Of a stretch of 64,000 nucleotides of DNA, positions 32,545 through 32,731 are shown one piece after another. Every line of letters starts with the position of its first letter. Positions within the stretch are counted from its first letter, which is position 1. The stretch lies in the NCBI RefSeq assembly GCF_013407935.1, contig NZ_JACBZU010000007.1:1-64000 (forward strand), in the 5' to 3' direction. The translations under genes and the position numbers were made by a program. Source of the stretch: Allomuricauda sp. ARW1Y1 (lineage in GTDB: Bacteria; Bacteroidota; Bacteroidia; Flavobacteriales; Flavobacteriaceae). The notes under the pieces are model-generated. The model had not been told where the DNA came from, ran no database searches, and saw only the letters and a program-made list of their open reading frames with translations.

Positions 32545-32602
32545 CGCGGGGTAGAGCAGTATGCTTCGGCTACGCTCAGCACAGGGTCCGCTCGTCGGGC
32601 TC
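32545..32602 (+). pseudogene. disrupted duplicate of the initiator tRNA gene
   Basis: Bases 32545-32560 are identical to the first 16 bases of the intact tRNA at 32659, and 32590-32602 match its D-stem/anticodon-stem part (GCTCGTCGGGCTC). Between them sits a 29-base segment carrying a dispersed hairpin (32562-32581, stem TGCT/AGCA with the GAGCGTAGCCGA core) in place of three D-loop bases (GGT at 32676-32678 of the intact copy). After 32602 the similarity ends, so the anticodon loop and 3' half are lost. Confidence 0.75.
32562..32581. repeat. dispersed hairpin inside the broken tRNA copy
   Basis: TGCT and AGCA enclose TCGGCTACGCTC, the variant core of the dispersed hairpin family. It sits in what was the D-loop of the duplicate tRNA. 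Confidence 0.7.
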
Positions 32603-32658
32603 CTCGCTTTGAAAAATTGAAATATAGTTGCAACCGCAGGCAACATTAAAATATAAAC

Positions 32659-32731
32659 CGCGGGGTAGAGCAGTAGGTAGCTCGTCGGGCTCATAACCCG
32701 AAGGTCGCTGGTTCGAGTCCAGTCCCCGCTA
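32659..32731 (+). tRNA. tRNA-fMet (anticodon CAT)
   Basis: A full cloverleaf can be drawn over 73 bases. The acceptor stem is CGCGGGG/CCCCGCT and the D-stem GAGC/GCTC. Anticodon stem TCGGG/CCCGA encloses loop CTCATAA, and the T-arm is GCTGG/CCAGT around TTCGAGT, with A73 as discriminator. The unpaired 1-72 position (C and T) and three G-C pairs next to the anticodon loop are the marks of an initiator tRNA. CCA is not encoded. It is followed by a strong terminator. Confidence 0.95.

Follow-up and report, generated by a model that had tools for sequence, protein, structure and literature searches.

The question raised by this locus is why the 5' part of the initiator tRNA gene is present twice, and whether the broken upstream copy is an accident of one genome or one instance of something that recurs. 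The window analyzed is a stretch of 64,000 nucleotides, bases 1-64000 of contig C7 of genome G000, which belongs to a marine flavobacterium. It contains a single tRNA gene, called by ARAGORN as tRNA-Met (cat) at 32659-32732 on the + strand, which has a full cloverleaf with a CAT anticodon and is matched by the Rfam tRNA model at 32659-32731 with 64.9 bits. G000 gives one match to tRNA-fMet at E <= 1e-15, and no second initiator tRNA gene was found in it. A repeat search of positions 32000-33200 identifies two direct repeats, each 100% identical, of 17 nt (32545-32561 and 32659-32675) and 13 nt (32590-32602 and 32680-32692, corresponding to tRNA-fMet bases 22-34), confirming the duplication of the tRNA-fMet 5' part proposed in the initial annotation. 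The description there of a first copy that is interrupted by a hairpin in its D-loop region, with its 3' half gone, also holds, with the hairpin core GCTTCGGCTACGCTCAGC located at 32563-32580 between the two tRNA-like pieces and no tRNA 3' half following the first copy in the window sequence. The upstream copy (32545-32658) receives no tRNA call from ARAGORN and no Rfam tRNA match up to E 5, and its 17 + 13 bases identical to tRNA-fMet give it the partial similarity expected of a tRNA pseudogene.

The broken copy forms a leader unit of 114 nt (32545-32658, + strand), defined by the repeats and by a match of the covariance model R1, and opens with a head (32545-32561) that is a copy of tRNA-fMet bases 1-17 (17/17 identical). 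The minimum free energy structure from RNAfold is a three-way form in which the orphan acceptor 5' strand GCGGGG (32546-32551) is predicted to pair with a new strand facing it, CCTCGC (32602-32607), together with a D-arm-like hairpin with a UUCG loop (32554-32577), which contains the REP-like core, and a second hairpin, GGTCCG/CGGGCT (32585-32601), which overlaps the 13-nt tRNA repeat. A hairpin of ~18 nt termed P3 (GTTGC...GCAAC, 32626-32643, coordinates within a base) is predicted ahead of the tRNA, and the repeat and terminator searches place a terminator-like stem followed by a T run at 32734-32765, all of these on the + strand.

A promoter -7-like box, TATATTTG, is positioned at 32527-32534 on the + strand and follows the TAnnTTTG pattern, which we take to be the Bacteroidetes-type promoter -7 box. 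A second TAnnTTTG match is present on the same strand at 32498-32505, and a sigma-70-type match at 32503-32532 was found twice in overlapping registers. The frequency of TAnnTTTG in the window is at chance (57 found vs 54.7 expected), and the argument for a promoter therefore rests on the place of the box and its conservation. Of 64 arrays, a count in which some genomes are present under two locus names (e.g. L035 and L110), 46 have such a box no more than 45 nt upstream of the first recognised head; 17 of the remaining 18 have one further upstream, before a more diverged leader piece, and a box-like match also occurs inside the array in 4/64. The window has no TAnnTTTG box on the + strand between 32535 and 32658, in agreement with the proposal that the intact copy is without a promoter of its own, and the precursor would therefore carry a tRNA-like leader of ~115 bases. 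The unit and tRNA-fMet would be transcribed together from the promoter before the broken copy. That much of the initial annotation stands; the term misfolded, which it applied to this leader, is probably wrong for most relatives because there the orphan 5' strand finds its pairing partner within the leader itself. A diverged extra leader piece, with a hairpin resembling a tRNA anticodon arm, is seen after the promoter, ~80-200 nt before the first head region, in L105, L107, L124, L127, L128, L138, L141, L153, L156 and L158. A leader peptide or codon-like loop in the leaders of L105, L124, L128 and others was considered and dropped, since in close relatives the ATG is lost and stops occur.

The same broken unit is present in separate genomes, with 112/114 aligned positions identical in G018, which is of the same species, and 109/114 aligned positions as in the window in G027 and G039; the upstream similarity is thus real and the window unit is no assembly artefact. 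A pattern scan of genome contigs shows the repeated tRNA-fMet 5' end in 57 database stretches. In 53 of them the intact tRNA-fMet is preceded by 1-4 broken units, and the other four, of which three are from Chryseobacterium and one is from Amniculibacterium, contain nothing but intact copies in tandem. The stretches sort into 43 class-1 (including L133 and L135, first sorted as "other" by the script), 3 class 1B, 7 class 2 and the 4 with intact tandem copies only, and names among them are Eudoraea, Ulvibacter, Winogradskyella, Maribacter, Arenibacter, Croceitalea, Polaribacter, Lutibacter, Psychroflexus and Flavobacterium. Head conservation in this collected set is partly by construction, the search patterns having demanded the head. 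Within the family the head pattern matches 19/397 genomes, and R1, run at this scale with stricter filters that may lose weak members, gives 29 matches in 20/397 genomes (17/237 genera). All but one of the 29 are beside an intact tRNA-fMet (28/29) and the last runs into a contig end inside tRNA-fMet, the units matched by R1 being strictly linked to tRNA-fMet in the 397 family genomes. In 20 unit-bearing genomes, 13/18 pattern matches to the class-1 motif are at tRNA-fMet; the 5/18 elsewhere are without the hairpin and were judged chance, as was the occurrence of the motif in 2/395 genomes of the order.

In the genus the intact tRNA-fMet is usually directly behind a conserved promoter region. 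Thirteen of 71 genus genomes match the repeated-head pattern and 14 match the covariance model, and a unit missed by both in G045 brings the total to at least 15/71; most genomes of the genus are without a unit, which is thus dispensable. All three states for which relatives were to be checked, two intact copies, one copy and the broken state, exist. The picture of a recent one-off breakage is too narrow for these counts and for a unit with its own conserved fold, and the comparison of relatives shows the broken tRNA-fMet copies as what appears to be a recurring conserved RNA structure at one place, and no one-off accident.

The genus units are of two kinds, A with 105-111 nt and B with 113-138 nt, the window unit being a B. 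G018 has A then B in tandem, G000 has only B and G063 only A, and the 100 nt upstream of the units in G018 and G063 are 97-98% identical to those of G000, indicating turnover by whole units. Unit A of G063 equals that of Flagellimonas marinaquae locus L154. Arrays of 2 to 4 near-identical units are found in L135, L145, L115 and L108, and Flavobacterium soli (L149) has intact, broken and intact copies in that order. Class-2 units keep the tRNA to the anticodon, have a TCCGCC...GGCGGA hairpin replacing the far side and have lost the 3' end; the class-2 pattern matches 5/397 family genomes. Units of this class were seen in L145/L089, L148, L134, L126, L111, L117 and L149, with up to four in tandem and the last unit of a tandem still having an intact anticodon arm. 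In L116, L137, L147 and L150 intact tRNA-fMet genes stand in tandem, separated by a spacer whose hairpin is like P3 of the leader units, which points to an ancestral tandem state. The array in L116 (5251-5764) has five such genes. At L025 (G028 C1:296091-296163) a second tRNA-fMet copy is preceded by a leader of ~100 nt that is without a tRNA head and has a hairpin and the same AAAATATACAT end.

The 51 class-1 units mostly give the same three hairpins with RNAfold. P1 pairs the head CGcGGGRUA with UAYCC(U/C)nCG around the loop GAGCAG. P2 is usually formed by GCUCAG/CUGAGC, or by AAGURC/GYACUU in units with a different hairpin, and has an inner stem and the loop ACCU. P3 is a hairpin ~15-35 nt before the tRNA that is also present in the spacer of the Chryseobacterium intact tandem copies. 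Whole class-1 units fold below shuffles (mean z -2.5, 30/51 below -2) and the P3 region alone is moderately better than shuffles (mean z -1.6, 17/51 below -2). The pair at P1 position 7/18 is A-U in 20, G-C in 18, G-U in 11 and A-C in 2 units and is thus kept in 49/51, and the P2 loop ACCU is kept by position in 50/51, 50/51, 50/51 and 51/51 of the ungapped rows. L190 has a diverged head, yet P1, P2 and the ACCU loop are kept.

Covariation in P1 and P2 supports this fold. In alignment A3, which has 57 distinct model-aligned rows, 46 cells are changed on both sides compared with 6.4 (sd 4.4) in shuffles, 9 pairs have both-side changes compared with 3.2, and 88.4% of cells are paired compared with 84.7%, each reached in 0/500 shuffles; A3 was fitted to the model and the shuffles ignore relatedness. 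The both-side changes in A3 are also far above the level with slid partners. The alignment used for the model, A2, which was chosen by pairing, has a both-side pair count at chance when taken alone (2 vs 1.6, 252/500 shuffles), and RNAalifold on a plain MAFFT alignment gives 9 pairs only, of which 1 shows changes in both partners, this weak signal being due to the misalignment of P2 and P3. The outer arms of P2 pair with -8.61 kcal/mol within their own unit compared with -7.45 (sd 0.21) when swapped between units (0/200), with the motif misplaced in 5/51 units that were left in. In the relatives there is good support for a leader with a conserved fold that descends from tandem tRNA-fMet copies. 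The head is also coupled to the gene behind it, head base 7 being equal to tRNA base 7 of the same genome in 48/48 class-1 units (27 G, 21 A), which indicates concerted change through gene conversion, fresh duplication or selection.

The window unit is a diverged relative of the class-1 units with the orphan strand paired differently. R1 matches it at 32545-32616 with 32.2 bits (E 5e-5 for one genome), a weak score vs the 56-87 bits of most class-1 matches. In place of the class-1 motif CAGGGTACCTAC and the ACCU loop of P2 it carries ACAGGGTCCGCTC, and it is filed as class 1B because both are absent.

The broken copy is on balance probably a self-folding leader unit of the initiator-tRNA transcript that arose from tandem tRNA-fMet duplicates, an account that starts from what is observed of the units, their sequence, distribution, covariation and strict link to tRNA-fMet. 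The last gene of an ancestral tandem tRNA-fMet array would have stayed intact, while the copies ahead of it would have gained a hairpin, often of REP type, and lost the acceptor 3' strand, leaving a self-folding RNA of ~100 nt. In class 1, the commonest, the left-over 5' acceptor strand would pair with a new strand just behind the start of the D-loop to form P1, followed by P2 with its ACCU loop and by P3; in class 1B, as in the window, it would pair with CCUCGC further downstream. RNase P would presumably remove the leader unit. The main benefit of P1 may be that the orphan 5' strand is tied up during transcription, which would spare the real tRNA a competitor for its 3' strand. Units come and go and replace one another, plausibly through recombination at their identical heads.

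With the leader folded alone, pairing of the orphan strand is above 0.8 in 41/48 class-1 and 6/7 class-1B units and is 0.89 in the window, whose unit folds cleanly by itself. Class-2 units mostly leave the head unpaired (pairing 0.27-0.98, above 0.7 in 3/11), and shuffling of the new P1 strand lowers head pairing only from 0.82 to 0.67. Joint folds of 42 class-1 units with the tRNA give a mean of 0.37 for its own acceptor stem vs 0.60 for the swapped pairing, so that the two forms are near equal and shielding is not seen at equilibrium. Left out of the joint folds were 6 class-1 units, of which 5 had a further unit behind them and 1 was truncated at a contig end, as well as 5 class-2 or "other" rows in which the tRNA fold was odd. 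In the window the swapped form is preferred by 5.5 kcal/mol (-65.9 vs -60.4 with the parts folded apart) in a thermodynamic model that leaves out tRNA tertiary contacts, modifications and folding order. The predicted equilibrium folding of the window thus argues against perfect shielding. Shielding could be kinetic, since P1 would form in transcription before the tRNA exists, and with moderate confidence shielding of the real tRNA from the orphan strand would be the leading reading of the fold. The conserved P2 loop needs more than shielding as an explanation.

A less probable alternative, though one with appreciable weight, is that the units are neutral relics, tandem duplicates decaying by hairpin insertion and deletion at a site where RNase P removes anything between promoter and tRNA, with the shared fold a product of inheritance, of REP palindromes and of gene conversion between unit and tRNA. 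Most genomes have no unit, the model finding one in 14/71 of the genus and 20/397 of the family, and they are swapped and lost between near-identical genomes. The change of head and tRNA together is as gene conversion predicts. REP-type hairpins are common in the genome: with up to 3 mismatches, the core GCTTCGGCTACGCTCAGC has 2 matches in the window vs 0.01 expected, and G000 contains 29 copies of the looser core CTTCGRCNNNGCTCAG (18 forward, 11 reverse) compared with 0 in the reversed control, so that the hairpin alone, but not the whole unit, is a short palindrome dispersed in the genome in the manner of REP elements. The hairpin by itself also supplies part of P1 and P2, and a REP-type hairpin can be found even inside the P1 loop, as in L189 (G446), where a second REP-like hairpin is inserted there in a minus-strand match. 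The P2 3' arm, however, is outside the REP core yet co-varies with it, and does so too in the units of L077, L078 and L112, which have a non-REP hairpin at the same spot. Many genera share the ACCU loop and CAGGGTACCTAC but not the linker, and CAGGGTACCTAC is absent after the other REPs in all REP contexts read. A simple REP insertion was rejected, the REP-like core being one part only of a unit whose CAGGGTACCTAC is not behind the other REPs read.

The comparison of units with their surroundings bears on the same alternative. The unit without its head has 0.95 identity between the window and G027 and between the window and G039 vs 0.63 for the adjacent noncoding flank, and among 76 same-class genus pairs, which are not independent, the unit is more alike than the flank in 62, less in 13 and tied in 1. 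Between G018 and G063 the order is reversed, with 0.84 for unit A and 0.94 for the flanks, and by region within 8 genomes conservation is 0.82 in the core and 0.76 in the flank, which is partly coding. Covariation and the kept loop in the relatives speak against a remainder of the unit free of constraint. The unit-flank comparison is mixed, and exchange between lineages would also make units more alike than flanks; purifying selection and unit exchange both fit.

A regulatory or trans-acting RNA, with P2 as a recognition hairpin in a leader that senses or chaperones tRNA-fMet, or with units released as small RNAs, is improbable, yet conceivable because the P2 loop complements the D-loop. The loop, UACCUA, complements UAGGUA in the initiator tRNA D-loop at every base and is kept in 50-51/51 rows while its stem varies (AGGGU/ACUCU, AAAGU/ACUUU, AGAAU/AUUCU), G-U pairs preserve the match to the D-loop in the loop variants AUCU, GCUU and UACCUG, and several arrays have 2-4 near-identical units. 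Against this, the complementarity was spotted post hoc, two variants (L033 and L092) break one base pair, the motif is absent from class 1B of the window and from class 2, and no terminator or ribosome-site switch is seen. A combined form is a little more doubtful still. In it, P1 would hide the orphan strand while the P2 loop (UACCUA) makes a kissing contact with the D-loop (UAGGUA) of initiator tRNA; the one initiator-tRNA transcript of the cell would then sense or chaperone the tRNA made from it, and the window 1B unit would be a relative that no longer has the loop.

A mobile cassette inserting at the tRNA-fMet 5' end by site-specific recombination, with the 17-nt head as attachment site, is very unlikely, for although a direct repeat brackets every unit and close relatives have different units at the same site, with A and B in tandem in G018, intact tandem arrays yield the same repeats without insertion, every model match in the 397 family genomes is before tRNA-fMet, and known islands at tRNA-fMet use the 3' half. 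Second copies of the tRNA-fMet 3' half only (bases 30/31-73) are present in G018 (C1:88067-88109), G053, G001, G022, G060, G016 and G041. In G018 and G053 the copy is downstream of the tRNA at a distance of ~13 kb, the kind of remnant left where islands integrate in the 3' half.

Rfam searches of the window region (E <= 5) and of 12 loci (E <= 1) give tRNA only and otherwise sub-threshold matches; rtT RNA (RF00391) and the T-box (RF00230) are not among the matches listed for either. A literature search on such leader units returned nothing on the feature, and one on the tyrT repeat and rtT RNA nothing relevant, within sources from which subscription papers mostly fell outside. The E. coli tyrT operon has repeats, with rtT RNA, that are downstream units each with ~19 nt of the tRNA 3' end. 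This is probably the nearest known arrangement, the likeness being tandem units beside a tRNA gene, each opening with a short piece of the tRNA, on what here would likewise be one transcript; the present units are its mirror image, upstream and with the tRNA 5' end. Like tRNA pseudogenes and degenerate tandem copies, the units are recognisable incomplete tRNA-fMet copies beside the intact gene, but they share a covarying fold across genera and in the cases seen are on the promoter side only. They have in common with REP/REPIN elements the dispersed hairpin core, whereas REPs elsewhere, in the contexts read, are without a following CAGGGTACCTAC and some units have a non-REP hairpin. T-box leaders might offer a speculative likeness in a leader that recognises a tRNA by loop pairing, although here the gene downstream is the tRNA itself and no terminator/antiterminator is seen.

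The level of initiator tRNA helps set translation capacity, and G000 has one gene for it. If the precursor in many flavobacteria starts with such a conserved structured RNA, this would be a new kind of tRNA leader, in which gene debris, the broken copies of the tRNA itself, has been turned into an RNA part. It would also provide a natural test of how competition between two identical 5' strands for a single 3' strand is avoided in the cell, for which the near-identical genomes with A and B, B only and A only are ready-made comparisons.
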